Shown here: positions 2 to 21,064 of the stretch, one piece after another
Layout: every line of letters starts with the position of its first letter
Position numbering within the stretch: the stretch's first letter is position 1
From: Lachnospiraceae bacterium
GTDB taxonomy: Bacteria; Bacillota; Clostridia; Lachnospirales; Lachnospiraceae
Direction of reading: 5' to 3'
Assembly: GCA_029067205.1 (NCBI GenBank)
Contig: JAIEEY010000078.1
Location: 25,203-89,202, forward strand
Length of the DNA: 64,000 nucleotides
Position numbers and translations under genes: made by a program
The notes under the pieces: generated by a model
What the model saw: only the letters and a program-made list of their open reading frames with translations
Told to the model about the DNA's origin: nothing
Databases searched by the model: none

Positions 2-3000
2 AAAAAAAATCTGCGTCCACTGGATGTTTTTGGCGTCTATAAACTTACAGGACAGGAAATACAGGTTGCCGACCTTGCAGTCACACAGGCATACCTTGAA
101 AAGAATGCGTATAAACAGAAAGCTCTTCTTAATCTGTCAGATGAAAACAAGGAACAATATGAGCCTGTCTCCCTGTCGAGGCAGTATTTTTTCGCTGGAA
201 CGTATCCGATAGGAGACATTGCCCTCTATGAAAAGATAGAAGAGCGTGTAGTCAGGATGAATGAGGTTTTTTATCCAGAACTTAAAACACTTTCAAAATC
301 TGATAATTTCGGACTTTACAGATTGCGTCAATATATTGGATCGGACAGCTATGATCGTCTTGCCCGGCAGCTCTCGTGGGAGATCAGGGATAATAATCCT
401 GTTGTAAATGAGCAGGCCATCAGGAATGCGATTACAATATGTCAGGATCTCGAAAGGCGCGGGCTGCCCTTTACAATTGAGAAGGACAGTAATGCCGGAC
501 AGTTGAAGGCAACAGTATCTCTTGGGAAAAAGGATTCCATTGACATCAGGATTTTTGACTATGAAAATCCTAATTATGTAGGGCGTACCTTTAATGGGAC
601 TGCATCATATTTTCGGTTTGCATCCAAGTCATCTGATGGAATAAAATCTGATATTTATTTTCCGAATGAAGATGATGTTCTTGTTCTGCTTGCACATAGT
701 CTGGGCGAGCATCCGCAAACGCCTGAGCCAAAACCGGATGGTACGCACTTTATGGTGGGAGAAAACGGGGATGTCAGGCAGTATGATGGCAATACATCAG
801 TTCCGGTATTGACACGAAACAATGAACATTACAATATGGCATACTGGTCAGCTGAGAATTCCAATACATTTTATAAACTGGTCCGCAACAATGACGGATA
901 CATACAGCCCGTATATATCTATAATGAAGGCTACAGCAAAGCAGGAACAGAGAACAGGAAATTTGAAACTCCTGATGATGCAAGGAAATATATTGATGAG
1001 AGCATAGAGCTGGCAAAACAGAATTTTCAAAATGTAACGCTTGGAGCTGGGTTTTCGGAAAGAGCTGAAACAACAGGAGCAGATTTTCCAGACTCTTATA
1101 TATCAGATATCAAGAAACTGCAGCTGAAATATCGTGAATATCTTGATTATGATGATGTATTACTGCAGGAAGCCGGGGAATCGAACGAAGCATATTCACA
1201 AAGACTGGAGGAATTTAGACATGATGAAAATGCAGAACTGCCTGATCATGCAGAAAAGCGGGCAAAAATAATTGAACACAGCAGTGAGACAGCCCGCATT
1301 CTCCTCGGACATTCTGAAGGCACTGGTTCTGAAGATAACCCTGTTACACTGAATGTCGCTGCAGTTGCCGAATATTCCGGTGAACGTGAGACTGACCTGA
1401 TCGCTGCAATGAAAGCCTGTGGCACGGATACAAAATTTGACCTGATGCAGACGGATGAATTTAACATGAACCGGATACGTGAGATGCTCGTCACATATGA
1501 TGAAGGTTCTGGCGAGTCCATGCTGGAAAATAGCAGTCTGTCGCCATTCATGTCGCATATCAGGGATACAGTCCTTGATTCACTGGCGGCACAGGGAGTT
1601 GGGGTATCTGCTTTAGATATTGACCAGAATGGGATCATACGGTATGAGGGTACTGTTGTCAATAAAATGCTGCATGATGGAGACATGGAACCGGAAACCA
1701 GACAGATAACAGGTTATATCGGGCAGGTTTTTGAGCCTGATGAGAGGGGAGTGATTGTAACACGGTATAACCATGATGATAACCGGGCGATCATTCCAAA
1801 GTATACGGCAACGGTTGAGAGACCTGATCCTGAAACAAACCTGTCTTTGGAAAACCGAACGATATGCTGTGGTTATGAGGAGATGCTTGACCGTAGAATA
1901 AGGCTGAATATACACCGTGATTTTGCGGGCAGAACATTTGATTCGGATTTTAATACAACACAGCTGAATGGCATTTACCGCGAATTGTATTCTACAAAGA
2001 TACCGGCAGATTATATGACCTATTACCGCGCAAAAGGAATGGATGATGAATATATAGAAGCACTGATTAAAACCCAGAAATCAATTGTGAGGTATCCGAC
2101 ATCCTATATAGAAAACTCAACACTTAATACGTGGTATGACCTGAAAAAAAGAAATTTCATCAATGACATAAATAAGGATAATTCCTCCGTTACTCTTGAA
2201 AATATTGCCATTCTGAAAGATTGTGAAGCGTTTGATTCATTGGCGACTGGAAATGCCAGAAATCAAGGAATTTTACGCTATATGAGGGAACACGCGTACG
2301 TCAATCCTGATACGGGACATTTGGAACCGCCCCGTAATCCTGATGGCACAATCAATGAAAGTGATAAAATGGCGTTGCTGAATCTCCCAATGTTCCGCTA
2401 TATTGACTATAATCCGGCAGACAGGGTGGTCATGGTGGTTGGAAACAGCATTGATTGTTTACAAGTTGACAAGAAAACTGCCATAGCGCATATGGCTATT
2501 GAGGGATGGTGTATGGATGACGCTTATGTTGTTTCCAAAGAGTATGCGGAGCGCCATCTTGTCAATTCCGGTGATGCAGACACAACAAAGAAATTAGATT
2601 TGGATGTTATCAAGCCACATATCTGCGATTCTGACGGTTTTCTTATGACATCATTCGGTGAGGATGGGCAGGAATTTGTGCAGTTTTATGGCCATAGTTA
2701 TCCGCTTGATGAAGTCAACAGCAGATTTGACAAGCCTGAAAATGAGCAGTCAAGGGAAGAATTATGTGCTGAATATATCAAGGAAGAGCTTATTGCGAAT
2801 GATATAGGGCTGCGCCCGCTAATGGCGGGAGATAAAATTTGCGATCTGGGCGGCAATAAAGGCGTCATATCACTTGTCGTTGACAGAAATATGCCGCAAG
2901 AAACTGCAAAACGACTGAACCTGGAATATGAGGTTGAATTGTTTAAAATCAATGATGAACTTGAAGTCGTGGGAGCGCCTTTTACAGCACCAAGCCGTAT

Positions 3001-6000
3001 GAATGCGGGTACTGTAAGGGAGATGATGGAAAACGCAAGGGAATTAAAGCTTCCGGACGGGACAGTGATCGAAGGCGGAATGGGTACGGCCAGTATGATC
3101 ATTACGGACAAGCTCGTCGATGAAAAAACGCATATTTATGATGATGAAACGCATGGCGACGGAAAGGGCAGGAATGCGTCATCACAGTTTGCATGGCAGC
3201 TTCAGGCAAAACACGCTGATACATTCATGCGGTTAATATATGGTCAGAATGACAAGAATTTTGGAAAGGTGCGCGAACGTCTGATTGCTCTTGGCTATGA
3301 TATGGACGAAAGCAATTGTCCGATAAAGGGATACTCGCCGCATAGCATTACAGTCAATGATGATTCAGGGGAGAGAGTCGTTAATGAGACAAGGAACATA
3401 ATTGAAATAGGGGAGGCGGAAATTTATCCATCAAAGGATGGTTTACAGAACCGGACAGATTTAAAGGAGGCAGTCAAAAAGTTACAGGGAGAACTATCAC
3501 AAAAAGGAGGTTTTATCAGAATCCCGTTTGAGATCGAACTGGAATCAGGTGTAAAGACAGAGCCGGCATATGATGGAAAAGGCGGTTATCTTATGCCCGT
3601 TCTCTCACCACTGATGCGTGCGGATGAGACATATGATGACGGCTCGAAGATAATACATGATTATACGCGCAAATATCTCAGCATTGCGCGCCATGCGCTT
3701 GATTACAAGGCAAAAGATGCCCAGATCAGGGAGTACCGCCGTCTGCTCAATAATGAACCTGATGAGGATGGAAATTATGGAGTCAGCAAAAAGGTTGCGG
3801 TGGAGCGGAAAAGTAAGGGCCAGATATTAAAAGGCGCAGAGGTATACCGGTATAAGATAAGAAAACCGATAAGTGAAAAAGATGATATACAAAAGAAGGC
3901 ACAGGCTGCATATAACGAACTAGCAAAAAATCTGCATGATACCTATTTTGTTGGTAAGAAAAATGTATGTAAAACAGAGCTGATGTGCAGGATGATCCAA
4001 AACTCTGCCACTGCAGTATGGTTTCCTGATCCGCGTCTGAAAATTGATGAATGCCGCATGACTGATGAGATGATGAAAAAGCTTCATCTGAAAGAAGGTG
4101 ACAGGGCTCTTTTGTGGCGTGATCCTCTGTTGAGGCCCGAAGGGGTTGCCGTACTGACGGTAAGGCGCTGTGCCCCGGGAGACCAGCCCATTGTTGGCAT
4201 TGCTGTCAATCCAGTAATAGACAAACGGTTTGATGGAGATTTTAATGGTGACAGTGTTGCTGTCTGCTCGCTTTCAAATGCAGTATTCCTGAAAGATGTT
4301 GGAAAAGCAGATCTCCGTGTAAACAGACTTCTAAAAAGAATTGAACAGATGCAGGCAGATGATCCGGAAAACCAGGAACAGCTTGAACGGCTTGAAAAAC
4401 AGTTTTCAAAGGCAAAAAAAGATTATGACATGGCATGCGAGGATCTGGAGTTTTTTAATGGTGCCAGGGATGAAGTGATCGATAAGTTCAGTGTCGTAAA
4501 TACACTTACAGATCTTGCGGAGACTCCCGATGATCCAAAAACACCTGAAGAAGTGGTTTTTGCTTTAAATTTTGGTCTTGACATTGCATCTGCAAAGGGT
4601 AAGATCCAGGAAAGCGGTCAGACAGTTATGGTCCCTGATTCGGAAGGGAACATGACAGATGTCCTGGAGCTGCCCGAGCTTGCAAAATATGACATTATCG
4701 AAGGAAATAATGCGGCGGCGCTTGGCAAACTCAATATATATGTGCAGACATTGTTTGGATATGCTGACGCATCAGATTACAATGATTACAGCAGCTGGGA
4801 AAATTATTATGAATCACAGAACCGCATGATTGTTGACCATAAAGCAAAGGGAAAAATGAAGTCAATGGTTGAATGTGCGAAATATGCTAATACAGGAGTG
4901 ACCTTTGTGTGTGATGGTGATGACCATATATATACAGCAGAGGAAATGAATGAGCGTATGGACAGTGATAAGAGTGCAATCTTCCGCATTAATACAGCTG
5001 ACGGGGCAGTAACGGACTATGGGACGCCTGTTATCCATGTTGAGATCAATAATCCTAATCTTAGTGAGGAACAGAGGAATGAGATCATCCGACGAAAAGA
5101 TGAGATGAAGGATATGATAAGGCAGGTACAGCTTGCAACAGCGATCAAAACAATCGGAACCGGAACTGCGGGGGCTTTTTCCCAAAAGGGTATCAAGATA
5201 ACACGTGACAATGAACCGCTCAACACGCTGGAGATTACATATGGAGCCACGCAGGGTATCCTGCAGGCAAAACATGATGCCGTGCAGGCAGAGCAGCTCT
5301 ATACCATATTAAGGGATACACTGCCATCACTGTTAAGGGGAAAGCCCATTTTGAATGATCCTGATAAGGGATGGATACCGCACGCAGTAAATGGAGATAA
5401 AAATCTCAGTAAGAATGAATTTATACAACAGTATTATGATCTGTGCAATTCCCCGGACGGATTAAATTATAACGTCTGCAGGCAGAGGATTGAGAATCTT
5501 GCCAATGTTCTTTATACAGTCGATGAGGGTGGAAAGGAGAAATTTATAAGCTTTTATGATGACGAATATGCATCCAATCTTGACAGGTGTGCCTATCCAA
5601 AAGGAAATGACAGCCTGAAAGTAATAAAAGAGATTGCAGAGCTGAATATGGATCTGCCAAAAGATAAGCGCAATTCTATATTTAACAGCAGGGCTTCAAA
5701 GCAGTTTGTCCCAGATAAGGACAGTGCAAGATTTGAAATAAGTACAGTGCAGCATGTCAATGATATGCAATTAGAAGCAGCAAATTCCATGGATGAGGAT
5801 AAAAATTCAGAAAAGTGTGTCATTCAGGATGACAAAGGTGCTAAAAAACAAAATAGTGACCGTAAATCCGGCAGAAATCTTGATAACCGCATCCTTGTGA
5901 TCGGACCAACACCGGAAAAGCTGTATGGAAATGATATGGACAGAAAGGCAATAGAAAAATACAAAAGATTAAATCAGGAATTGAAGGGATATACCCAGAA

Positions 6001-6535
6001 GCTGTACGAAGACGGCTATCGTGAGTTTGTTACAATCTCGGCGCCTGGTTATAACAAGCTTTTATTTGAGGCTGTTAATGATCTAAAAGAGAAACATCCC
6101 GGAGAGGTAAAGAGTTTTGTCCTGTGTCCGTCCAAAGACTGTTATAAGGATTATACGGAGGAGGAAAATCACTTGTTTGTATCTAAAGGTATCAAAAAAA
6201 TGATCGATGAATCAGATAAGTACATTGATGTGTCGGAAAAATTAAAAGGCGGAATGGATGAAGCTGTCGCTATCAGCAAGCATGTATCTGTAATGTATCC
6301 GGAAGGCGGTAATTCATGGCACAAGAGAAGAGATGATGTATTGGCGCGATATATGCAGATTGTGCATAAATATGGAAATGATCTGAAACAGCATGAGTTT
6401 TTCCCAGAGGATACAAATGCGTACAGGGAATATCACAGTTCTGTTGGAAAGCAGGCAAGATGTGATAATCTGGCTTTATATGATGCACAAGAAGCGCATT
6501 CCAAAAATAATGACAAGAGTATGCAGTATAACTGA
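2..6535 (+). CDS. Giant single-chain RNA polymerase-like protein (beta-type DPBB followed by beta'-type DPBB), 5' end outside the window; possible C-terminal SLOG/DUF1273-like domain
   Basis: Frame of the 2092-aa ORF is open without a stop back to nt 2 (KKNLRPLDVFGVYKLTGQEIQ...RVVRMNEV). Motif LMAGDKICDLGGNKGVI + APFTAPSRMNAG resembles RNAP beta GDK..GRHGNKGVIS...PSRMNIGQ; LLWRDPLLRPEGVAVLTVRR...NPVIDKRFDGDFNGDSVAV resembles beta' NRaPTLHR...NADFDGDQMAV. Confidence 0.8.
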   Translation, partial: KKNLRPLDVFGVYKLTGQEIQVADLAVTQAYLEKNAYKQKALLNLSDENKEQYEPVSLSRQYFFAGTYPIGDIALYEKIEERVVRMNEVFYPELKTLSKSDNFGLYRLRQYIGSDSYDRLARQLSWEIRDNNPVVNEQAIRNAITICQDLERRGLPFTIEKDSNAGQLKATVSLGKKDSIDIRIFDYENPNYVGRTFNGTASYFRFASKSSDGIKSDIYFPNEDDVLVLLAHSLGEHPQTPEPKPDGTHFMVGENGDVRQYDGNTSVPVLTRNNEHYNMAYWSAENSNTFYKLVRNNDGYIQPVYIYNEGYSKAGTENRKFETPDDARKYIDESIELAKQNFQNVTLGAGFSERAETTGADFPDSYISDIKKLQLKYREYLDYDDVLLQEAGESNEAYSQRLEEFRHDENAELPDHAEKRAKIIEHSSETARILLGHSEGTGSEDNPVTLNVAAVAEYSGERETDLIAAMKACGTDTKFDLMQTDEFNMNRIREMLVTYDEGSGESMLENSSLSPFMSHIRDTVLDSLAAQGVGVSALDIDQNGIIRYEGTVVNKMLHDGDMEPETRQITGYIGQVFEPDERGVIVTRYNHDDNRAIIPKYTATVERPDPETNLSLENRTICCGYEEMLDRRIRLNIHRDFAGRTFDSDFNTTQLNGIYRELYSTKIPADYMTYYRAKGMDDEYIEALIKTQKSIVRYPTSYIENSTLNTWYDLKKRNFINDINKDNSSVTLENIAILKDCEAFDSLATGNARNQGILRYMREHAYVNPDTGHLEPPRNPDGTINESDKMALLNLPMFRYIDYNPADRVVMVVGNSIDCLQVDKKTAIAHMAIEGWCMDDAYVVSKEYAERHLVNSGDADTTKKLDLDVIKPHICDSDGFLMTSFGEDGQEFVQFYGHSYPLDEVNSRFDKPENEQSREELCAEYIKEELIANDIGLRPLMAGDKICDLGGNKGVISLVVDRNMPQETAKRLNLEYEVELFKINDELEVVGAPFTAPSRMNAGTVREMMENARELKLPDGTVIEGGMGTASMIITDKLVDEKTHIYDDETHGDGKGRNASSQFAWQLQAKHADTFMRLIYGQNDKNFGKVRERLIALGYDMDESNCPIKGYSPHSITVNDDSGERVVNETRNIIEIGEAEIYPSKDGLQNRTDLKEAVKKLQGELSQKGGFIRIPFEIELESGVKTEPAYDGKGGYLMPVLSPLMRADETYDDGSKIIHDYTRKYLSIARHALDYKAKDAQIREYRRLLNNEPDEDGNYGVSKKVAVERKSKGQILKGAEVYRYKIRKPISEKDDIQKKAQAAYNELAKNLHDTYFVGKKNVCKTELMCRMIQNSATAVWFPDPRLKIDECRMTDEMMKKLHLKEGDRALLWRDPLLRPEGVAVLTVRRCAPGDQPIVGIAVNPVIDKRFDGDFNGDSVAVCSLSNAVFLKDVGKADLRVNRLLKRIEQMQADDPENQEQLERLEKQFSKAKKDYDMACEDLEFFNGARDEVIDKFSVVNTLTDLAETPDDPKTPEEVVFALNFGLDIASAKGKIQESGQTVMVPDSEGNMTDVLELPELAKYDIIEGNNAAALGKLNIYVQTLFGYADASDYNDYSSWENYYESQNRMIVDHKAKGKMKSMVECAKYANTGVTFVCDGDDHIYTAEEMNERMDSDKSAIFRINTADGAVTDYGTPVIHVEINNPNLSEEQRNEIIRRKDEMKDMIRQVQLATAIKTIGTGTAGAFSQKGIKITRDNEPLNTLEITYGATQGILQAKHDAVQAEQLYTILRDTLPSLLRGKPILNDPDKGWIPHAVNGDKNLSKNEFIQQYYDLCNSPDGLNYNVCRQRIENLANVLYTVDEGGKEKFISFYDDEYASNLDRCAYPKGNDSLKVIKEIAELNMDLPKDKRNSIFNSRASKQFVPDKDSARFEISTVQHVNDMQLEAANSMDEDKNSEKCVIQDDKGAKKQNSDRKSGRNLDNRILVIGPTPEKLYGNDMDRKAIEKYKRLNQELKGYTQKLYEDGYREFVTISAPGYNKLLFEAVNDLKEKHPGEVKSFVLCPSKDCYKDYTEEENHLFVSKGIKKMIDESDKYIDVSEKLKGGMDEAVAISKHVSVMYPEGGNSWHKRRDDVLARYMQIVHKYGNDLKQHEFFPEDTNAYREYHSSVGKQARCDNLALYDAQEAHSKNNDKSMQYN

Positions 6536-6559: not shown

Positions 6560-7072
6560 ATGGGAATTTTATATGAGACAGCAACATTAACACAACATAA
6601 TACCAGGGAGGGCAAATTTTTATTTAACAGAAGTCTTGAAACAAGGGAAAGAAATGATCCTGATAGAAAATTTGATAACGAATTTCAGGAACAGAAAGGG
6701 CAGATGTTAAGCGAACAGATTCCAGAATTACAAGTACCCATAAGGAACTATGCGTCCATAGGTTCTGATGTAAAAAAGGTGCTTGAAAAAGCAGAACAGT
6801 TGGACGATAAGAAAGATATGTCATATGGGCAGCCTGCATTAAGCGATTCAAATGAAAGGGCAGCGCAGCAGCTGATCGTCCACAGGACTGAGGCATATGG
6901 TTATTTTGATGAACTGGGTAAAAAACTTGGAAAGATCGCAAAGAATACTGAAACAAAGGAAGATGACAGATACGCCGAGTCCCTGCGTGGGAGATTAGGA
7001 GCGGAGCTTGCAAACATCAATTCAGTTTCAGTAGGGGATGTTGAAAATGCTTTTTATGAATTATCAAAATAA
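6560..7072 (+). CDS. Hypothetical protein, co-directional with RNAP-like gene
   Basis: 170-aa ORF, RBS-like gaaaggaaaag upstream, 24-nt gap from the preceding gene. Confidence 0.6.
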   Translation: MGILYETATLTQHNTREGKFLFNRSLETRERNDPDRKFDNEFQEQKGQMLSEQIPELQVPIRNYASIGSDVKKVLEKAEQLDDKKDMSYGQPALSDSNERAAQQLIVHRTEAYGYFDELGKKLGKIAKNTETKEDDRYAESLRGRLGAELANINSVSVGDVENAFYELSK

Positions 7073-7084
7073 GGAGATCACAAA

Positions 7085-9625
7085 ATGTTCGAAGTCAACA
7101 GGGCAATTAACAATTTCAAAGTAAATTATTCCCAGGCAAAGAGCCGTGCTGCTCTGGTAAAGGGCGAGACTACATGGCAGTGTCCTAATAATCCGGGCGG
7201 GTATTTATATCGAAGCCCGGATGGTGCGGTGGGACCTCTGGCAGAATTTGATGCTCAATTTAAGAGTTCAATGTACAAATTTTACGAAGATGATAAAAAA
7301 ATGAACAGATATAAAAGGGAAATGCATGATCTTATTAAAAAGGGCAGGAAGTATGACTATATGGTCAGTTTATCAGAAGAAGCAGCTAAAAGTGATCTTG
7401 AAAACCGGATAGATTTTACGCAGGAAAGAGTGGATAAGATTCCTGCAGAATTATTGGAAACGGGATTGGAGAAAGGTGTTTTCATTATCAGGGACCAGGA
7501 GAACCATATAGTTGATTTACCCAAAGCCCCCGACTGCAAATATGATGCAGAATATCTTCATTTTGATAAGCAACGGCAGATGGCAAGAATGGCAGAACTG
7601 CTGTGTGGTAAAGGTCATAAACTTGCCAAGAATCCAATTTCTAAAAATGTAAACAGTAAAAATCATGAGCGTCTGCGTAGGGATGTGGATCATATTGAGA
7701 ATGGGATAAATCCTGATATTGCCCGTTTCAATGAGAAATATGGTACGAATATTGACGCAGTGCTACAAGATTATGAGAAATTAAAGGGCAATCATTTCAA
7801 TATAAATGGACAACGGTTTATCAATGATGATTTTACAAAGGAAGAAGAAGCATTTGCGTTATTTAAGGCAATCGAACATTTTAGTGCACCAAGCAGGGAG
7901 GAATTATACGAATATTTTAATGAGATACGCAGAGTTGCTTCATCAGATAAGAAAAATCAAATGAAACAGGATAACCGGCATCTTGAAGAAGCACCTATGG
8001 AAGATCAGCAGAAAAAGGTTCAGGACGGGGAAAAAGAAAACAAACAGACTAAGGATGCTTCATGGGATGCCCTTATCCAGAAATTATGTCAGTTTTTTAT
8101 TGACTATACAAGAGATCCAGCTGAAACTCTTAATAAATTTATGGCGGAATATTCTGATGCACTGCACAAGATTCAGGATGATTCGGATAATTCCTATCAT
8201 AGTGAATTAAATGAGCTGCTAAATACAAGTAAGAAACCAATCATTAAACATATCTCGGATGAACTGGCAAATGAAAGGACATCAAAAGAGTACATAACAC
8301 TTGATAAGTATCTGAAGGCAAAAGATAATCATATCGAAATATACCGTGGTTTTCTATCAGATGAGGATAACGCCGATATCAGGTTTGTGGATACTGATGG
8401 AAGAGAAGTAACTATCAAAAATGTCACAGACATGAATAAAACCGAAATGGAGGCATTGGTTGACCTGATCGATGACGGTAAAATAAATATGTCATTAGAT
8501 GGCAGGATTCTTGACAGTTTAACAAACGATGTATATATGAATGTGTATTGTGATCAGAATTTGTTACAAATATTTGAAAAACAGAATATGCAGCTGTTGA
8601 AGGAAGAATTGAATATGTTCCGTTCCATGGATAACAGGCAGAAAAAAGAGTATATTGAAAAGAGTGGATTTGATCCGGATGCTGCCAGAGATGCATATCG
8701 TTATTCATCCAGTAAGGTTAATGCTATAGAGCATGGTCAGGATATTACCAGTGCAGCTATGGAACAGTTAGGGTTATCTGTTGAAAAGAAAGATACTATT
8801 TTGAATAAAAGAATCAATGCATATCTCGCATCACAGGCTCTTCATTATGAACATTATAATCATGCATTCGAGAAGGCGATTGAGTCAGGAGAGCCTATTA
8901 CAGTCTATAACTACAAAAATAAAAGTATGAATCCAATAAAAATAGGGGAATTAAGTGAGCTTAGTCCAACTGACAGGATGGCTTTGGTTGATCTGATCGA
9001 CCATGACCGTATATTCATGTATGTGGGTGAAAAGAAGATAGAACCAATATATGATAAGTATACGAATCCAGACAATTACAAACAGGGTGGGGATTTTTAT
9101 TCACCAGAAATATCTGAAACAGAATTTAAGGCTATGGCTGAATTGCATTCGATTAGAGATATCAATGATAAAATAAGCAATTTAGATAAGATTCCTGCTA
9201 ATGATGGTTTAAGAAAAGAGCTGGAATCAGAAAAGATATACAGGAAAAGTATAGCAGATCATTTAAAGTGTGAGGATGCAAAGAGTACAGACACTTACCT
9301 GGTTTCGGCTAAGCATTTATGGCTTACTAAAAAGATAAACAATACAGGTAATCTAAGCGAATATTATAAAAGAGATAGTGCTGATATACAAAGGATGGTA
9401 TCTGACCGGGTAAAAACGGATACGGACAAAGATGCCCGGCATCCGGAACCCTGCAGTACCCCCCATTGTTTAAAAGACAACGAGGATTGGAATATCCGGC
9501 ATCCGGACCCGGATGCAGCGCCATTTTCCGGTCGTCTTGTAAGTGAAGCGTTCCAGATTTTAAACCAGGAGCAGATAAACAGGAATGATTTGCAGGATGA
9601 AGATTATGTGTTATGCTTTCATTAA
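7085..9625 (+). CDS. Large uncharacterised protein with an internal repeated module
   Basis: 846-aa ORF, RBS aaggag; internal similarity EMEALVDLIDDGKINMSLDGR vs DRMALVDLIDHDRIFMYVGEK. Confidence 0.7.
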   Translation: MFEVNRAINNFKVNYSQAKSRAALVKGETTWQCPNNPGGYLYRSPDGAVGPLAEFDAQFKSSMYKFYEDDKKMNRYKREMHDLIKKGRKYDYMVSLSEEAAKSDLENRIDFTQERVDKIPAELLETGLEKGVFIIRDQENHIVDLPKAPDCKYDAEYLHFDKQRQMARMAELLCGKGHKLAKNPISKNVNSKNHERLRRDVDHIENGINPDIARFNEKYGTNIDAVLQDYEKLKGNHFNINGQRFINDDFTKEEEAFALFKAIEHFSAPSREELYEYFNEIRRVASSDKKNQMKQDNRHLEEAPMEDQQKKVQDGEKENKQTKDASWDALIQKLCQFFIDYTRDPAETLNKFMAEYSDALHKIQDDSDNSYHSELNELLNTSKKPIIKHISDELANERTSKEYITLDKYLKAKDNHIEIYRGFLSDEDNADIRFVDTDGREVTIKNVTDMNKTEMEALVDLIDDGKINMSLDGRILDSLTNDVYMNVYCDQNLLQIFEKQNMQLLKEELNMFRSMDNRQKKEYIEKSGFDPDAARDAYRYSSSKVNAIEHGQDITSAAMEQLGLSVEKKDTILNKRINAYLASQALHYEHYNHAFEKAIESGEPITVYNYKNKSMNPIKIGELSELSPTDRMALVDLIDHDRIFMYVGEKKIEPIYDKYTNPDNYKQGGDFYSPEISETEFKAMAELHSIRDINDKISNLDKIPANDGLRKELESEKIYRKSIADHLKCEDAKSTDTYLVSAKHLWLTKKINNTGNLSEYYKRDSADIQRMVSDRVKTDTDKDARHPEPCSTPHCLKDNEDWNIRHPDPDAAPFSGRLVSEAFQILNQEQINRNDLQDEDYVLCFH

Positions 9626-9676: not shown

Positions 9677-10501
9677 TTATTTTACCAGGCCGTAAACTTC
9701 ATCAAGTATCCCGTCGATTATGCATTCATCAACGTCCATATACTTTTCTATAACAGCTTCCCTCGCAAGGGCGGAATCCTGTTTAAATTTATAATATGTT
9801 TCCGCCATATTTCGGATGCCTTTCTTCTGCTCCTCAATTCTTTCTTCAGCCCTTTCATCAGCTACATACTGTTCAAATAAAGTCGCCATAATCTTAACCC
9901 CTTCCTTCTTGTGCTTGAAGTAATCCACCCTGCTGCACAGCTTTGCAAATTTCTTGTTTGTGCCCCTGCTGTCTTTAAAATACTTCATCAGCTCCGCTAT
10001 TTCAGATCCGTCATCAATAGCAATATTCGCATAAATCTCATGTACGCCGTTGTCCACTGTTTCGCCCGTTTCGTCAATCACCCTGCTGATGTGGTAGACT
10101 GTCCTGCCCCTGTCAAAAACGTCAAATCTTGATATGAATACCATGTAAACGTCGGGCAGATTCTTGTATTTTATACCCTTCTCGGTAAACGTGGTGTCGA
10201 TATTGGACTGGTTGAAGCGCACCCGCTTTTGGTGGTCGTCATCATCAGCCTTTTGTACTTCTATGTTGGCCATTGAGCCATCATTCATCTCACACAGGGC
10301 ATCCAGTACCACCGAATGCGCTCCGTTATTCCGTAAAAAACGCTGTACCTGACACTGGATTACCCTTAACCTGGGCTGTTCCAAAATGATACGAAGCATT
10401 TCCCCGCATACCTCTCTGTCTTCCGCTACCTTGTGAAAAAATACATCATCTATCACATTTAAACTCTGAACAAGCGCCATCTGTTCGTCTAAAGTCTTCA
10501 T
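9677..10501 (-). CDS. Rpn-family PD-(D/E)XK nuclease / putative transposase
   Basis: DDVFFHKVAEDREVCGEMLRIIL...ALCEMNDGSMANIEVQ...KRVRFNQSNID pattern typical of the family; likely start MKTLDEQ. Confidence 0.8.
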   Translation of the reverse strand: MKTLDEQMALVQSLNVIDDVFFHKVAEDREVCGEMLRIILEQPRLRVIQCQVQRFLRNNGAHSVVLDALCEMNDGSMANIEVQKADDDDHQKRVRFNQSNIDTTFTEKGIKYKNLPDVYMVFISRFDVFDRGRTVYHISRVIDETGETVDNGVHEIYANIAIDDGSEIAELMKYFKDSRGTNKKFAKLCSRVDYFKHKKEGVKIMATLFEQYVADERAEERIEEQKKGIRNMAETYYKFKQDSALAREAVIEKYMDVDECIIDGILDEVYGLVK

Positions 10502-10773
10502 AAATGCCCCCTTTGAATAGTATTGTATCATGCGTCCTATTGGATTGCCACTACTTTCTTTTTAAATTTTCTGCTATCCAAACAGAATTGCGCCGTTGCC
10601 CTGTACTTTATCCATATTGAAAAACTTCCCAACATATTCTGCATTCAAAATCGGGAGTGCAGGATTGTCCATTGACACAGGATATAATGAATTGTATTTC
10701 GTTAACGCTCATGAATTGATGTTGATAAATACGTTTACTTATGCTAACATTATACCCATAAATGGGATAATAA

Positions 10774-11199
10774 ATGAGAAAGGAAATGCGTGCTATGGCT
10801 AGAAGACCAAGAAATGAATATGCAAACTGGATACATCTTCTTTCTGAGACCTCAGCAATAAGAGAACTTCTTGTTGCCGAACTGGAAAATCTGTCACCGG
10901 ACTGTAATACAAAGTTTATAAAGGAATCAATCATGGGGTCTCCAGGAATTGGTGACAAAATAACAAAGAAGGTTTTTGATACCTTTATTGAACTTATAGG
11001 CGTAAAAATAATGGAATCACAGGATAAGGAATTTTATATACCAAATTTTGGGACATTTGCTGTAAAGACGCACAGGGGACATAAAATGAAACTTAATCCG
11101 CGAGAAGAAGATGGACAGGTTGTTGATATTCCAGATTATAAAATGCTTCGGTTTAAGCCGGATGACAAATTTAAGTCTGATGTTTTAATGATTGATTAG
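10774..11199 (+). CDS. HU/IHF-like DNA-binding protein
   Basis: FYIPNFGTFAVKTHRGHKMKLNPREEDGQVVDIPDYKMLRFKPDDKFKSDV matches the HU beta-arm/C-terminal pattern (GFGTF...R..NP.tg....p....FKp); start may be 10795 (MARRPRNEY). Confidence 0.75.
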   Translation: MRKEMRAMARRPRNEYANWIHLLSETSAIRELLVAELENLSPDCNTKFIKESIMGSPGIGDKITKKVFDTFIELIGVKIMESQDKEFYIPNFGTFAVKTHRGHKMKLNPREEDGQVVDIPDYKMLRFKPDDKFKSDVLMID

Positions 11200-12854: not shown

Positions 12855-14359
12855 ATGAGTATGAAAGAAAAAACAAAAAAAGTTAGCGACCCCGGTTCAT
12901 TTAAAGTCTGGAAGGTTCCTGCATGGGCATCCAGAGCGGCAGCATTGACTGTCAACATTGCTGTTTTGCTGCAGGTTACATATTATTGTACGGATGCGCT
13001 TGGAATGGCTCCCGGCTTGGTCGGTATGCTTTTACTGGTATCAAAACTTTTTGACGGATTTACCGATTTGGCTGCAGGGTTTATCATTGACAAGACACAT
13101 TCAAAATTGGGGAAAGCAAGACCTTATGAATTTTGGGCGTGTTTCAATTCTAGTTGACAAATGCATGTTTACAAATTGCCATGGAAAGCTTTTAAATACG
13201 ACAAAATAGGACGCATCTGTTTCTGTAATTTGTCAACTAATCATTGTGGATTTTGAAACACGCCGAATTTTGTATTCTTTTGGCATGGATTTTTACAGTA
13301 CTTATGTTCAGTACCCCGACAAATTTTAGCATGACAGGAAAATGTATATGGGTATTTGTCACTTATACTATGATCTGTTCAGTGTTCCAGACATTCCTGA
13401 ATGCTTCGGATGCAGTGTATATGGCAAGGGCATTTACAGCGCAAGATACACAGACTAAAATCCTTTCCTTTGCATCTCCGATCCAGATGATCTGCAGCAT
13501 TGCCGCAGGAGCAACGTTACCGATTATGATTAATTCTTTTGGAAGAGAACCGGGCGGCTGGACGAAGATCGGTCTGATTTTTGCAGTTCCTTATGGTATT
13601 CTCGGTCTTGCACGTTTCTTTTTCATTAAGGAACTTGACATTGAAGAAACACAGCAGGAAAGCAGCCAGCAGAGTTTAAAATCCCTGTTGAATATCATCA
13701 GGCAGAATAAGTATATCTTCATTATTGCTGTCTTTACTTTAGTCGGCGGATTGATCCAAAATATTGGAAGTGCAGTTACAAATTACTATTTTCAGTATGT
13801 TTATGGCGATCTGAATATTGCCGGACTGTTTGGGGCACTTAGTATCATTTCACCATTTCTGCTGGTTATTATGCCGGTCTTGTTAAAGAAGAATTCATTG
13901 GCAAAGCTTACTATGTTTAGCTGTGTGATTGGTGCATTAGGCAATCTGTTGAAATTCGTAGGCAAAACCAGCCTGCCACTCCTGATTGTAGGTAATCTGC
14001 TTACTATGGTACCGCTGATGTTTTCCTGCATGATCAACATATTCCTGATTGAATGTATGGATTTCGGAGAGTGGAAGAATGGTGTCAGGGTAGAAGGCGG
14101 TCTTGGTTCTATTAACGGTTTTGCCAGCAAGTTAGGTACGGGTCTGTCCTCAGTTATTGTTGGGTTTGTGATGCAGATTGCAGGATATGACGGGACACTG
14201 GCACAGCAGTCTCAATCAGCGAATTTTGCAATTATAGCATTGTACTCCCTCATTCCTTTAGCTTTGTTTGTTATCCAGTTTTTGGTTATGAAGCAATATG
14301 ATCTGGATAAAAAGCTTCCGCAGATCCGGGCTGAACTGGAAGAGAGACACAATGCATAA
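12855..14359 (+). pseudogene. GPH-type sugar:cation symporter (MFS) interrupted by a 129-bp MITE-like insertion
   Basis: ORFs 12855-13157 (WASRAAALTVNIAVLLQVTYYCTDALGM...KARPYEF) and 13244-14359 (...WIFTVLMFSTPTNFS) rejoin in frame after removing 13136-13264 and one 8-bp duplication. Confidence 0.85.
13136..13264. mobile_element. MITE-like non-autonomous insertion, 129 bp
   Basis: 12-bp TIR GGCGTGTTTCAA/TTGAAACACGCC, subterminal 12-bp IR TAGTTGACAAAT (13151-13162)/ATTTGTCAACTA (13228-13239), flanked by 8-bp duplication GAATTTTG (13128-13135, 13265-13272). Confidence 0.9.
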
Positions 14360-14378
14360 AGAAAGGCAGGAATTGTAA

Positions 14379-15230
14379 ATGAAAGATTATTTTGGCTATG
14401 AAGGAAAGATATGTGTCGTGACCGGAGCATCTTCCGGTATGGGTAAAGCCGCCGCCGCTATGTTAGTAGATTTAGGGGCAAAAGTCTATGCTATAGCACG
14501 CAGAAGATGCGAGGTTGAAGGATTGGTCTGTAGTATTCAGGCTGATTTGAGTAAAAAAGAAGAAATTGATGCTGCATTTGGGCAGATCCCTGAGCATATT
14601 GACAGTTTCTTTGGAGTTGCAGGATTGTCCGGCAGTAAATCTGATTATATGACTACTTTCAATGTAAACTATACCGCGAATCATTATATTACGGAAAAAT
14701 ATCTGAAAACGAGGATGCAGGAGGGCGGTTCCATTCTGTTTGTGACTTCTACCTCCGGTGTGGCATGGCGTGAAAATCACCGGGAAGCGGAAAAGATTCT
14801 AAGTATGGGAGACTGGCAGGAAGTACAGGAGGGAATGGAAAAACTGGTTAAGCCGGGAACCCCTGCGCAGGTGGCCTATATGTTATCTAAACGGGTCGCA
14901 AATGCCTATGCGTGTTCATTGGCTGTGGAACTGGGTGAACGCCACATCCGCGTCAATGCGGTTATGCCCGGCAGTACGGATACCGGTATGAAAGATGAAT
15001 TTGCAATGATGGCTGGAGGATTGGAGAATATGATTCGTTTTGCGGGAAAAGCTGGTCGTCTCGCAACTTCCGAAGAGGTTGCCATGCCTATTGTATTTTT
15101 GAACAGTAACATGGCAGGATTCATCAGTGGCGAAGAACTTATTGTAGATTATTGTGACAATGCCATGAAGAAACTGGATTTAAAACCAGAAGTCTGTGGG
15201 GCACCAGCGCTTCCTGAAGAAGTGCTATGA
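14379..15230 (+). CDS. SDR-family oxidoreductase
   Basis: VVTGASSGMGKAAA (TGxxxGxG), ...YMLSK (YxxxK), NAVMPGSTDTGM. Confidence 0.85.
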   Translation: MKDYFGYEGKICVVTGASSGMGKAAAAMLVDLGAKVYAIARRRCEVEGLVCSIQADLSKKEEIDAAFGQIPEHIDSFFGVAGLSGSKSDYMTTFNVNYTANHYITEKYLKTRMQEGGSILFVTSTSGVAWRENHREAEKILSMGDWQEVQEGMEKLVKPGTPAQVAYMLSKRVANAYACSLAVELGERHIRVNAVMPGSTDTGMKDEFAMMAGGLENMIRFAGKAGRLATSEEVAMPIVFLNSNMAGFISGEELIVDYCDNAMKKLDLKPEVCGAPALPEEVL

Positions 15231-15293
15231 AAACTGTTTCAATTCTGGAAATTTAATCTGAGCGCCATTAGATATAAAAAGGAGAAAAAGCTT

Positions 15294-17687
15294 ATGTTAC
15301 AGATTGACTTTTGTAAAGATTGGAAATTTAGGAAAAAGGGGGAGGAAGAGTTTACAGTTGTAACTCTGCCCCATGACGCTATGATATGTGAAGAAAGATT
15401 TGCGGAATGTGAGAGTGGGGCTGCCGGAGCCTATTTTCCCGGCGGCGTTTATGAATATGAGAAAGAATTTGAGGTCCCGTCAGAATGGGAAGGGAAAAAG
15501 ATTTTAATCCGTTTCGAGGGGATATACCGCAAAGCTGAGATATCTGTGAATGGAGTGCGTGTTGGAAAGATTGTAAACGGATATACGGAAAGAACTTTTG
15601 AACTGGCACCGGCTCTGCATTACGGAACAAAAAATACGATGAAAGCAGTCGTGGATAACTCCGAAGTGCCGAACAGCAGATGGTACAGCGGTTCCGGCAT
15701 TTACCGTCCGGTTACCCTCTTTGTACTGGAGTCTGGACATATTGAGTTAGACGGTATCAGGATCAATACGATTTCCTATGCACCTGCAAAGATTGCAGTA
15801 TCTGTGAAACACACAGGAGGGGCAGCATCAGTGTCTGTTCTGGATGAGGGTAAGGTTGTAGCATCGGTTGCAGGTGATGTAGTGGAATTGGAGATTCCGG
15901 ATGCAAAGCTGTGGAGTGAGACAGATCCATTTCTGTATATATGTAAAGTGGTATTAAAAGACGGCGAGGTGATTACAGATACCAGAGAAGCTTCTTTTGG
16001 AATCAGGAAGATCGAGTGGAGTCCAAAAGGTCTTTTGATTAATGGGCAGGAAACATTGTTGCGTGGAGGATGTGTCCATCATGACAATGGTATTCTTGGT
16101 GCCTGTGCCTATGCAGAGGCGGAAGAGAGGAAAGTCCGTATTATGAAAGAATATGGCTACAATGCTATCCGTTCTTCCCATAATCCCTGTTCCCGCGCGA
16201 TGCTGGATGCCTGTGATCGTTTAGGTATGTATATGATAGATGAGACTTGGGATATGTGGTATCAGCATAAGAGCAAATATGACTATGCGGCTGATTTTAT
16301 GGATAACTATACGGATGATATTGACAGTATGGTGCAGAAAGACTATAACCATCCATGTGTACTCATGTATTCCATCGGAAATGAGATTTCGGAGCCGGCG
16401 AAAGAAGAAGGCATAGAACTTGCCCGCAAAATGATAGGGCATTTACATGGGCTGGATGATTCGCGTCCGGTCACAGCCGGTTTGAACCTGATGATTGTGG
16501 CAAATGCCTCCAAGGGACAGGAAATGTATAATGAAGACGGTGGTGTCAATGCGGATACTGCAAGTGAAATAGGTGGTGTACCTGATGAGGGCGCGTCACA
16601 AATGCCGGATATGAGCCAGATGAACAGTACTATGTTTAATCAAATGGCCATGATGGTAGGTGCCGGCATGAACCATTCGGCTGACAGTGAAGAGGCTGAT
16701 AAGGCAACCACTCCGATTTTGGATGCCTTAGATATAGCAGGATATAATTATGCTTCCGGAAGATATCCGTTGGAGGGGGAGGCACACCCAGACCGTATTG
16801 TATTTGGCAGTGAGACCTTCCCGCAGGATATTCCCGTGAATTGGGCTATGGTAGAACAGTATCCGTATTTAATCGGGGATTTCATGTGGACTGCATGGGA
16901 TTATCTTGGAGAAGCGGGACTAGGGGCATGGGCTTATACAGAAGATGCAATGAGCTTTAATAAGCCGTACCCATGGCTTTTAGGCGGTGCCGGTGTCATT
17001 GACCTCATCGGGCATGGCGATGGAAGTGCATTGCTTGCAAAAGCGGTATGGGGGAAAAATAATGGACAGATAGGCATTGCAGTAACACCGGCAAACCATC
17101 CGGGTATTGAAGTAATTAAATCCGCATGGAGGGGAACCAATGCTATTCCGAGTTGGTCGTGGAAAGGTTGCGAGGGCAATCCTGTTACTGTGGAAGTATA
17201 TACGAAAGCAGCGAAAGTTGTTCTTTCCTTAAATGGAAATGTGATTGGTGAGACTGCCCCAGAAAACTGTAAAGTGTGCTTTGAAACGATATATCAGCCC
17301 GGTGAATTGTCAGCAGTCGGGTATGATCAAAATGGTGCAGCCATAGAGAGCGGTTCTTTATATTCAGCAGTTGGTAATAATAAGATTTGCCTGCGGGCGG
17401 AAAGCAGTGCAATTGCGAATGATGCCGTGGTTTTTGTTGAGGTCAATATCTGTGGAGAAAATGGTGTGGTTGAGTCCAATGCGGATGAAATGCTGACAGT
17501 TCGTGCAGAGGGTGCTGAAATCCTAGGTTTTGGCAGTGCACAGAGGCGTACGGAAGAATCATTTGTTACATTCGGTTATACCAGTTATTATGGAAGGGCA
17601 TTGGCGGCAGTGCGTATCACGGATGCTGAACATGTAAAGATAGCCGTTAAAGGTGCGACTTTGGAAGAACAGGAAATTTTATTGTAA
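15294..17687 (+). CDS. Glycoside hydrolase family 2 protein (beta-galactosidase-like)
   Basis: SRWYSGSGIYRPV, LLRGGCVHHDNG, NAIRSSHNPCSRAMLDACDRLGM, MYSIGNEISE. Confidence 0.9.
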   Translation: MLQIDFCKDWKFRKKGEEEFTVVTLPHDAMICEERFAECESGAAGAYFPGGVYEYEKEFEVPSEWEGKKILIRFEGIYRKAEISVNGVRVGKIVNGYTERTFELAPALHYGTKNTMKAVVDNSEVPNSRWYSGSGIYRPVTLFVLESGHIELDGIRINTISYAPAKIAVSVKHTGGAASVSVLDEGKVVASVAGDVVELEIPDAKLWSETDPFLYICKVVLKDGEVITDTREASFGIRKIEWSPKGLLINGQETLLRGGCVHHDNGILGACAYAEAEERKVRIMKEYGYNAIRSSHNPCSRAMLDACDRLGMYMIDETWDMWYQHKSKYDYAADFMDNYTDDIDSMVQKDYNHPCVLMYSIGNEISEPAKEEGIELARKMIGHLHGLDDSRPVTAGLNLMIVANASKGQEMYNEDGGVNADTASEIGGVPDEGASQMPDMSQMNSTMFNQMAMMVGAGMNHSADSEEADKATTPILDALDIAGYNYASGRYPLEGEAHPDRIVFGSETFPQDIPVNWAMVEQYPYLIGDFMWTAWDYLGEAGLGAWAYTEDAMSFNKPYPWLLGGAGVIDLIGHGDGSALLAKAVWGKNNGQIGIAVTPANHPGIEVIKSAWRGTNAIPSWSWKGCEGNPVTVEVYTKAAKVVLSLNGNVIGETAPENCKVCFETIYQPGELSAVGYDQNGAAIESGSLYSAVGNNKICLRAESSAIANDAVVFVEVNICGENGVVESNADEMLTVRAEGAEILGFGSAQRRTEESFVTFGYTSYYGRALAAVRITDAEHVKIAVKGATLEEQEILL

Positions 17688-17773
17688 AATAAAAGTATAA
17701 AAAGCAGAACGGTTATGAAAATGGGTATAGTCTGCAGGCCTGTACCCATATAGTAATATGATAAGGAGGATTT

Positions 17774-20356
17774 ATGGCTAAATTTCATGCAACAACATCA
17801 CCTGAAATGAGCGGCAGGGAAAAGAGGAACATGGAGCGGGTCAGAAAGATTGTACCGCACGGAATGGTACTTTTGGAGAATGACGGAGTGCTTCCGCTAA
17901 AAAGTAATCCGGAGAAGATTGCACTATATGGAAGTGGAGCCAGGCGGACTGTAAAAGGAGGAACAGGGTCGGGAGATGTCAACAGCCGACAGGTAATCAC
18001 TGTGGAAGATGGTCTGGAACAGGCAGGAATACTCATAACCACAAAAGCATGGATGGATTTGTATGACAAAATGTGTAAAGAGCACATGGATGAGCATATG
18101 GCTAAAATTGGAGAACTTCTTGCAAAAGAGGGGCAGGCTGGTATAGCAAAGATTCTTGATATGCCTTATAAAGAGCCTGAGGAACCATTGATATCAGACA
18201 GTGATATTGCATCAGGGGAAGCGGAGATGGCAGTGTATGTATTGTCACGCAATTCCGGGGAAGGCAAGGACAGAAAAGTTGCGGAAGGTGACTATCTGCT
18301 GTCAGATCATGAAAAAGAGAATATTAGAAAGCTGGCAGGAAGCTACAGTAAGTTCATTGTAGTTCTAAATGTCGGAGGGGTAATTGACACGGAATTTCTT
18401 AAGAAGCAGGATGGGATCAATGCAATCCTGCTTATGAGTCAGGCTGGAAATGTGGGAGGACTTGCATTTGCAGATGTTTTAACCGGCAAGGCATATCCTA
18501 CAGGTCATCTGACTGCTACATGGGCGGAAAAATATTCGGATTACCCTTCTGCGGATACTTTCAGTTATCGAAATAATGATACGGATGATGAGTATTATGA
18601 AGATGGAATTTATGTAGGCTATCGGTATTTTGATACTTTCAATGTGAAACCTGCATATCCGTTTGGGTATGGTTTATCTTATACTGAGTTTGCTCTGCAT
18701 GATATGAGTACGATCATTAGCGAAGACCAGATCCGAGTTTCTGTAGAAGTTGAAAATACCGGAAATCATCCGGGAAGGGAAGTGATTCAGGTATATTACT
18801 CTGCCCCGGATGGGAAGATAGAAAAACCTTATCAGGAGTTGGCAGGATATAAAAAGACAAAGGAACTTCTGCCAGGCAAAAAAGAACTGGTTGAGATAAG
18901 CTTTGATATAAAGAATATGGCATCTTATGATGAGGAGAGCGCTTCTTATGTCATTGAAAACGGGGAATACCTTATAAGAGTCGGCACTCATTCAAGAAAT
19001 ACAAGAATCGTAGCGGTTCTGTATGTGGATGAATCTAAAGTGATATGGGAGTTAGAAAATAAGCTGAAACCCGATTGCACTATTACAGCGCTTTCTAAAA
19101 AAGGTGTTGCACCATATTCTTATGAGAATGAAGAAACAGAATTAAACAGCGCAGTCAGAATAGATATGATCTTAAATAAAATCGATGTAAAATCCGTAAA
19201 TTATTCTGAAGGCGACACTGCAATGAGCCTGAAAGTGGATAAAAGTCTGACCTTGGATGATGTGAAAAGAGGTAAGATTACTATAGATGAACTTATAAAT
19301 TCTATGGATGTCACAGAACTGGCAGCATTGTGTGTCGGAACTTCCCGTGGTGGATTAGGCAGTGTTTCTGTAATAGGTGCAGCTTCTGCAGCCTGTCCGG
19401 GGGCGGCGGGAGATACAACATCAGAGCTTATTGATACCAGAAAGGTTCCCAATATGGTACTTGCAGACGGGCCTGCCGGACTTAGATTATCCAAGTCATT
19501 TGTAGCGGATAAGGAAGGAAATTTAGTCCCGGGCCTTGGCGAATCGGCGCTTGGAGGGATTGAATTTCTTTTAGGAATGCAAAAGCCGGAGCGTCCGGAT
19601 GACGCAGTTGATTATTATCAATATTGCACAGCAATTCCGATTGCGACCATGCTGGCGCAGAGCTGGGATGAAGAGTTGATTGAAGAGGCTGGAGATATTG
19701 TAGGAGAAGAGATGGAGGAGCTTGGGATTCATTTGTGGCTTGCTCCGGGAATGAATATTCACAGAAACCCGCTTTGCGGAAGAAATTTTGAGTATTATTC
19801 AGAAGATCCTCTTATTTCCGGAAAATGTGCGGCGGCAGATACAAGAGGCGTGCAAAAGCATAAAGGGAAAGGAACTACGATCAAACATTTCGCCCTTAAC
19901 AATCAGGAGGATAACAGGTCTCACCTTAATGCACATTGTGGAGAGAGGGCTATCCGTGAGATTTATCTACGAGGATTTGAAATTGCGATCAGGGAATCTA
20001 ATCCACTTTCGCTCATGACTTCTTACAATCTGTTAAATGGGATTCATACAGCAAATAATTATGAGCTGGTGACTTCTATATGCCGGGATGAATGGGGATA
20101 TCAGGGACTGATCATGACTGACTGGGGAACAACCGGTGGAGGAGATATAAGTCCTGACTATGATAAGAAATATGGATTTTCAAGTGCGACAGGCTGCATC
20201 AAGGCCGGAAACGATCTGATTATGCCCGGAAGCCAGAAGGATATAGATGACATTATATATGGTGTGGAACATCCAGAAGAGAATCTGCTTACATTGGGAG
20301 AACTCCGTCAATGTGTAAAACGTATCATCAATACTATTTTAGTCACAGAAGAATAA
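17774..20356 (+). CDS. Glycoside hydrolase family 3 protein, GH3-C domain preceding GH3-N domain
   Basis: N-terminal VLLENDGVLPLK...GSGARRTVKGGTGSGDVN; C-terminal LADGPAGLRL...KHFALNNQEDNR...GLIMTDWGTTGG. Confidence 0.9.
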   Translation: MAKFHATTSPEMSGREKRNMERVRKIVPHGMVLLENDGVLPLKSNPEKIALYGSGARRTVKGGTGSGDVNSRQVITVEDGLEQAGILITTKAWMDLYDKMCKEHMDEHMAKIGELLAKEGQAGIAKILDMPYKEPEEPLISDSDIASGEAEMAVYVLSRNSGEGKDRKVAEGDYLLSDHEKENIRKLAGSYSKFIVVLNVGGVIDTEFLKKQDGINAILLMSQAGNVGGLAFADVLTGKAYPTGHLTATWAEKYSDYPSADTFSYRNNDTDDEYYEDGIYVGYRYFDTFNVKPAYPFGYGLSYTEFALHDMSTIISEDQIRVSVEVENTGNHPGREVIQVYYSAPDGKIEKPYQELAGYKKTKELLPGKKELVEISFDIKNMASYDEESASYVIENGEYLIRVGTHSRNTRIVAVLYVDESKVIWELENKLKPDCTITALSKKGVAPYSYENEETELNSAVRIDMILNKIDVKSVNYSEGDTAMSLKVDKSLTLDDVKRGKITIDELINSMDVTELAALCVGTSRGGLGSVSVIGAASAACPGAAGDTTSELIDTRKVPNMVLADGPAGLRLSKSFVADKEGNLVPGLGESALGGIEFLLGMQKPERPDDAVDYYQYCTAIPIATMLAQSWDEELIEEAGDIVGEEMEELGIHLWLAPGMNIHRNPLCGRNFEYYSEDPLISGKCAAADTRGVQKHKGKGTTIKHFALNNQEDNRSHLNAHCGERAIREIYLRGFEIAIRESNPLSLMTSYNLLNGIHTANNYELVTSICRDEWGYQGLIMTDWGTTGGGDISPDYDKKYGFSSATGCIKAGNDLIMPGSQKDIDDIIYGVEHPEENLLTLGELRQCVKRIINTILVTEE

Positions 20357-20371
20357 AAAAGGATAATGTAG

Positions 20372-21064
20372 GTGTGCAGGAAAATGGAAGAAACAAACAG
20401 TCAGGAAAATATAATGAAAATATTACAGGAGTCCGCAATCCGCGATCAGATGGATAAGTTAGAGCGGTATCGGGTGCTGAATCAGGACGTAAAAAAGGGG
20501 CAGATACTTTTTGTGGGTTCGTCTCTTATGGAGCAATTCCCAATCAATGAACTGCTTATGACTGCTGGAATTGACAAAGTAATTTATAATCGGGGCATTG
20601 GGGGATTTACTACAGCCGATATGCTGGAGCATATGGAAGAGATGGTGTTCTCAGTAGAACCTTCAAAGATATTCATTAACATCGGAACAAATGATATCGG
20701 CAGTCCGGAATACTGCTTGGAAGAACTGATGGAAAATTATGGAGAGATTATTCGGCAGATACAAGAGAGACTTCCTGATGCAAAGATTTACATGCTGGCT
20801 TACTATCCGGTTAATGAGACAGATAAAATGCCGGATGAGAATATGAGAAAAATTATGTTCAGCACCAGAACAAACGAGAATATCTCCATTGCAAACAAAG
20901 CGGTGGAAAAACTTGCTGAACAGTTAGGATGCTGTTTTATCAACGTTAACAAAGGTTTGTCAGACGAAATGAATAAATTAAAGACGGAGTACACTATAGA
21001 GGGCATTCATATGTATGCAAACGGGTATAGAGTAGTGCTGCAGAACTTAAAGGAGTTTTTATAA
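20372..21064 (+). CDS. SGNH/GDSL-type esterase or lipase
   Basis: ILFVGSSLMEQFPI, NRGIGGFTTADML, NIGTNDIGSPE, EGIHMYANGY. Confidence 0.8.
   Translation: MCRKMEETNSQENIMKILQESAIRDQMDKLERYRVLNQDVKKGQILFVGSSLMEQFPINELLMTAGIDKVIYNRGIGGFTTADMLEHMEEMVFSVEPSKIFINIGTNDIGSPEYCLEELMENYGEIIRQIQERLPDAKIYMLAYYPVNETDKMPDENMRKIMFSTRTNENISIANKAVEKLAEQLGCCFINVNKGLSDEMNKLKTEYTIEGIHMYANGYRVVLQNLKEFL

Follow-up and report, generated by a model that had tools for sequence, protein, structure and literature searches.

RNA polymerases (RNAPs) encoded by genetic elements are known from phages and yeast linear plasmids, and the virion RNAP of phage N4 is injected and transcribes for its phage. Single-chain two-barrel RNAPs are already known too, the example being YonO. 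This reduced enzyme is an active RNAP, inactive when its catalytic triad is mutated, and it shares the triad and few residues by function (PMC5467207). The 'NCgl1702-like' RNAPs of mobile elements are described as having no flap (SBHM) insert (PMC7824862), and the RNAP modules reported in a survey of polyvalent proteins all belong to the N4 type and come from phages (PMC5512222). The window analysed here, a stretch of 64,000 nucleotides (nt) from a Lachnospiraceae bacterium, begins within a gene for a very large single-chain protein with a beta-type and a beta'-type RNAP barrel, located on a conjugative element. The family to which it belongs is almost certainly RNAP by identity, and its conservation suggests that the elements arrive with transcription machinery of their own.

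The stop-free frame covers positions 2-6535 of the window (+ strand) and codes for 2,177 amino acids (aa). On the window's contig (C481) the full gene starts 907 nt 5' of the window and codes for 2,480 aa, with the first 303 aa, including a DUF488-N3a domain, lying upstream of the window. An initial annotation made from the letters of the window had described a protein of more than 2,170 aa with large extensions, in which a beta-type barrel is followed by a beta'-type barrel. The motif positions and their order were confirmed and are now backed by sequence profiles, AlphaFold and Foldseek models and about 50 relatives. The beta-type signature consists of GDK..GNKG and PSRMN and the beta'-type signature of WRDP and DFxGD. 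Both lysines pointed out in that annotation (GDK and NKG) are present and were invariant in 35 of 35 rows of the core alignment, which includes the window copy. The core is under purifying selection (dN/dS of 0.087 versus the nearest relative). A single match to the protein was detected in the window's own genome, the assembly of which comprises 504 contigs (97.9% complete, 8.7% contamination). The features along the chain are as follows.

2..6535, + strand: single-chain RNA polymerase-like gene, aa 304-2480 of 2,480 in the window (open reading frame (ORF), contig sequence)
2231..2281, + strand: segment resembling the beta PVETPEGxNxGLI region (FDSLATGNARNQGILRY); weak matched stretch in the beta-half profile search, conserved among relatives
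2504..2551, + strand: counterpart (GWCMDDAYVVSKEYAE) of the beta motif GYNFEDAIVISE (beta-half profile, core alignment)
2828..2872, + strand: beta-type barrel, GDKICDLGGNKGVIS, with two conserved Lys (aa 1248 and 1256) (Pfam, profile, hhalign, core alignment)
2975..3010, + strand: beta-type barrel, APFTAPSRMNAG (profile, hhalign, core alignment)
3584..3676, + strand: beta' LPVLPPDLRP-type segment (GYLMPVLSPLMRADETYDDG...) (profile, hhalign)
4109..4144, + strand: beta'-type barrel, LLWRDPLLRPEG (profile, hhalign, core alignment)
4238..4252, + strand: catalytic triad site DFNGD (aa 1716-1720), Asn codon AAT at 4244-4246; Asp in relatives
5120..5278, + strand: conserved K..Q..TQ..KHD region (aa ~2010-2062), conserved among relatives
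5954..6178, + strand: YpsA/SLOG-like domain near the C-terminus, weak match (Pfam E 0.0011, below gathering score)

The Pfam search identified Rpb2_6 in the middle of the window protein (E = 2.9e-5), and the phmmer search of this protein alone against PDB gave nothing useful. The profile built from 35 relatives matched solved beta' at 3.5e-14 over about 210 positions, and the beta-half profile matched solved beta at 5.2e-14. In other members of the family, the NCBIfam models for RpoB (1.5e-13) and RpoC1 (1.3e-5) were hit, as were, in this order, the Pfam models Rpb2_6 and Rpb1_2. The AlphaFold model of the core (pLDDT 79.6, pTM 0.78) had RNAP beta' as its best solved Foldseek matches (E 1.6e-7, probability 1.00), and RNAP subunits were also found among the named viral structure matches. 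Because each comparison set the one-chain protein against just one subunit, whole-chain TM-scores reached only about 0.2. In such a model the two barrels would face each other, and the K..Q..TQ..KHD region may occupy the bridge-helix/trigger-loop position. By these likenesses the family is predicted to synthesize RNA.

The hhalign comparison of the family profile gave RpoC (97%, 3.7e-11, 202 columns) and RpoB (90%, 1.5e-6). The probabilities for YonO (0.1%) and for phi14:2 gp77 (0.2%), which we regard as the crAss-type virion RNAP, were negligible, each of the two being a single sequence, so that a very distant kinship is possible. The initial annotation had named YonO and crAss-like phage polymerases as known cases of the beta-then-beta' order; the family has no specific likeness to either, whereas RpoB and RpoC do match, and judged by these alignments the family appears clearly nearer to cellular RpoB/RpoC than to either. 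When 349 Bacillota genomes were searched with the family profile, 341 gave a match; the matches listed cover RpoC-type positions (~1e-13), and only the window's own genome gave a near-full-length one among them. In a Nocardiopsis genome the profile ranked the family member first, then RpoC, then RpoB ~2 kb away. The SKE-to-GDK segment, the site of the flap in cellular beta, is 22-24 aa long in 25 of the 35 rows and 84-98 aa long in the other ten, from Lachnospiraceae and several Bacilli (98 aa in the window copy).

The species scan revealed 48 loci in Bacillota and Actinomycetota. The nearest relatives of the window protein are from Lachnospiraceae, and plasmid-borne relatives were found in Streptomyces, Gordonia, Rhodococcus, Staphylococcus and Lactococcus; no phage relatives were detected in a phage collection or in two viral scans. 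The family is rare: one of 250 genomes of the window's bacterial family contained it, namely the window's own, and among 297 Actinomycetes sampled a strong match was seen in the seed genome only. A single change (98/90) divides the Actinomycetota rows from the Bacillota rows in the tree, in which several branches are long. On Clostridioides difficile plasmids of ~97-150 kb (NZ_CP149721.1 and others) genes annotated as rpoB were noticed.

Upstream of the RNAP gene, contig C481 encodes a phage-tail-lysozyme-type protein, a MobL relaxase, a Clp-type double AAA ATPase, a 743-aa protein (q743) and a VirD4/TraG coupling protein (T4CP), so the location on an accessory element asserted in the initial annotation was borne out and its carrier was identified as a conjugative element. 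Within this module ([MobL]-Clp AAA-q743-T4CP-RNAP) the order AAA-q743-T4CP-RNAP is seen repeatedly, in Lachnospiraceae as well as in Bacilli and Actinomycetes, and in most loci the RNAP gene immediately follows the coupling-protein gene. Staphylococcal plasmids carry T4CP, a membrane protein, a q618 homologue and then RNAP, and the Lactococcus plasmid differs. The distances between RNAPs correlated with those of T4CP (r = 0.92), AAA (0.93) and q743 (0.97), with 0 of 2,000 permutations as high. The RNAP gene is a regular member of the conjugation module in separate lineages and is co-inherited with the module genes.

The window copy itself is damaged. The beta' barrel site given in the initial annotation is present, but it had been overlooked that the middle catalytic Asp of the triad is replaced by Asn (DFNGD) as the result of one G-to-A change (AAT). 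The three nearest relatives (97%, 89% and 89% identical over the core) have GAT at this position, the triad is intact in the 34 other core rows, the plasmid relatives also have Asp, and D-F/H-D-GD was present in every relative whose motif was read. Since one of the three metal-binding Asp residues is Asn, the window copy is probably inactive, though the Asn codon could be an assembly error. In addition, a repeat of ~262 bp removed the last part of the T4CP gene of the window's element. Because of this damage the functional conclusions rest on the family and not on the window copy.

The ~262-bp repeat, which has hairpins, lies inside the coupling-protein gene upstream of the window (C481:23625-23889; L003:3626-3890). 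It had 40 matches listed in its own genome, three of them near full length; many concerned its ends only, and many sat at the beginning of contigs, C481 itself among them. Coupling-protein genes are also interrupted in Virgibacillus and Evansella, by two group II introns each and in Evansella also by a group I intron (L018:1598-9050 and L022:128-8511).

A sigmaA-type promoter (TTGACA-17-TATCAT or TATTAT), conserved across three Lachnospiraceae genomes, stands before a small membrane-protein gene that heads most of the transfer run, RNAP gene included, so host RNAP can start this run. In Actinomycetes most gaps between module genes are about 70-190 nt, and in several of these loci a strong stem-loop followed by a conserved block near TATGATCTATA was found 5' of the RNAP gene. 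As it has its own leader, the RNAP gene may be expressed separately in these loci.

The reading that best accounts for the data, and one considered probable with some reserve, is a sigma-independent, element-dedicated single-chain RNAP working with conjugative transfer. One polypeptide would condense the catalytic parts of beta and beta', and the facing barrels would form the usual active site from two Lys of the beta barrel and three Asp of the beta' barrel. The enzyme would probably initiate without host sigma, as the segment that in cellular beta carries the sigma-docking flap is mostly reduced. Its template would most likely be the DNA of the element itself and its activity tied to transfer, either in the donor, or in the recipient shortly after entry, or in both. 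Several observations weigh against such a role. Shared host ancestry also feeds the distance correlations, the window copy is without one catalytic Asp, expression of the Lachnospiraceae module needs no element RNAP in view of the sigmaA-type promoter, and in the search for an element-specific promoter motif the k-mers in the Actinomycetes gaps were at most marginally above shuffles. The initial annotation had proposed a transcriptase for the element's own genes, which the protein may be; a host-type promoter heads the Lachnospiraceae run that contains its gene.

A switch confined to the donor, which would read an element gene set from element-specific promoters with no role in the recipient, is a lesser possibility. 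It has a precedent in YonO, which serves the late SPbeta genes (PMC5467207), and the leader with its stem-loop and conserved block in several Actinomycetes loci would suit it, as would the gaps of roughly 70-190 nt between the module genes there, but the lack of a common motif above shuffles in those gaps and the host-type promoter on the Lachnospiraceae transfer run do not. Slightly more doubtful is a special case of the preferred reading in which the protein would accompany the DNA strand through the type IV channel and, once in the recipient, transcribe entry genes there. The position of the RNAP gene right behind the coupling-protein gene in most loci, the extra DUF488-N3a and SLOG-like domains, and a size and multi-domain build like those of 'polyvalent' proteins thought to be transferred (PMC5512222) are consistent with injection; donor-side roles, however, fit the neighbourhood equally, and no transfer signal was found. 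It is correspondingly tentative to see in the family a separate class of single-chain beta-beta' RNAP of deep divergence, carried by conjugative elements of Gram-positive bacteria, which would be exported with the transferred strand, or await it, and transcribe it independently of host sigma, as the conjugative counterpart of the injected virion RNAP.

Synthesis of RNA primers on single-stranded DNA for the complementary strand seems rather improbable. Primases are frequent on conjugative elements (PMC5512222). No primase turned up in the family scans of the transfer genes, as would be expected if the RNAP took this part, but several transfer genes had no family-scan match at all, which limits this negative, and the family is close to processive cellular RNAP. 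Moreover, many conjugative elements use host priming. That the protein is a relative without catalysis, whose only role is to bind nucleic acid or other proteins, as the lost Asp of the window copy might suggest, is very improbable, since the triad in the other 34 rows and both Lys in all 35 have been kept over long divergence and the single-base change is absent from the 97%-identical relative and occurs in an otherwise damaged element.

The accessory domains are constrained as well (dN/dS of 0.03-0.09 for DUF488-N3a and 0.06-0.09 for the SLOG-like end). The window protein has DUF488-N3a (aa 11-119, Pfam, 3.4e-17), as does L015, a near relative, and no match was obtained in three more distant members scanned; because of its occurrence in the close pair and not in the distant members, the domain is probably a gain of the Lachnospiraceae lineage. 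For the N-terminal region, modelled with pLDDT 67 and pTM 0.51, sequence searches gave no match, and no structural match reached an E below 0.2.

Downstream of the RNAP gene the window contains the following further genes.

6560..7072, + strand: 170-aa element protein, conserved in Lachnospiraceae relatives
7085..9625, + strand: 846-aa element protein, conserved in Lachnospiraceae relatives
9677..10531, - strand: PDDEXK-family transposase-like ORF, in a stretch without counterpart in the relative L013
10774..11199, + strand: HU/IHF-like gene (family scan)

Homology to the relative's element stops near position 11174 of the window. In Lachnospiraceae bacterium A4 the homologous stretch spans 222,344-257,342 of its contig, and since ORFs resembling ParA, ParB and a replication initiator, as judged by eye, lie on its left side, the A4 element may be plasmid-like. 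Beyond the element, positions 12855-21064 of the window hold an ordinary polysaccharide-use cluster with sugar transporter pieces in two ORFs (12855-13157 and 13244-14359), a short-chain dehydrogenase, GH2 and GH3 glycoside hydrolases and a GDSL lipase-like protein.

The literature search found no report of the place in conjugation modules, the closeness to cellular beta/beta' or the DUF488/SLOG-like fusions, most subscription papers being outside its reach. If the preferred reading is true, a two-barrel beta-beta'-like enzyme that recurs in bacterial conjugation modules would imply that host transcription is not all that some plasmids rely on, and the question of who transcribes an incoming plasmid first would become directly testable. 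The family would also offer a natural one-chain, reduced form of the universal enzyme, a help in asking what beta and beta' cannot do without.

Among the known systems, the NCgl1702-like group resembles the family by description only, as mobile-element RNAPs said to have no flap insert, and differs in that a review places it with RNA-dependent RNA polymerases (RdRP) and YonO (PMC7824862). The 48 loci include none from Corynebacterium, though the strict patterns of the scan make this weak evidence; that the group and the present family are the same, compared in this way by description, is conceivable but unlikely. The crAss-type virion RNAP (phi14:2 gp77) is likewise very large (2,180 aa), but it is encoded by a phage structural gene and has no hhalign similarity to the family. 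YonO of phage SPbeta shares the single chain with a beta-type and then a beta'-type barrel, but is ~100 kDa in size, phage-borne and without hhalign-detectable similarity. Polyvalent proteins are similar as very large conjugative-element proteins with unlike domains in one chain.

The cellular enzymes, among which the beta-beta' fusions modelled by NCBIfam PRK09603 are counted, are clearly nearer to the family by sequence than YonO or the crAss-type RNAP. An alpha subunit was found neither on the window's contig nor on the other family loci examined, save for one Streptomyces member: the plasmid NZ_CP109461.1 carries an extra RNAP alpha gene ~27 kb away (L098:16402-17427). A plasmid-borne alpha subunit as a partner was rejected, being limited to this one case and absent from the other loci examined. 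RpoB/RpoC and the family have in common both barrels with their catalytic residues, the beta-then-beta' order, significant profile matches, and the beta GYNFEDAIVISE-type and beta' LPVLPPDLRP-type segments. The family differs in its unmatched N-terminal region and extra domains, in the mostly reduced flap segment, in the union of both subunits in one chain, and in its location on conjugative elements.

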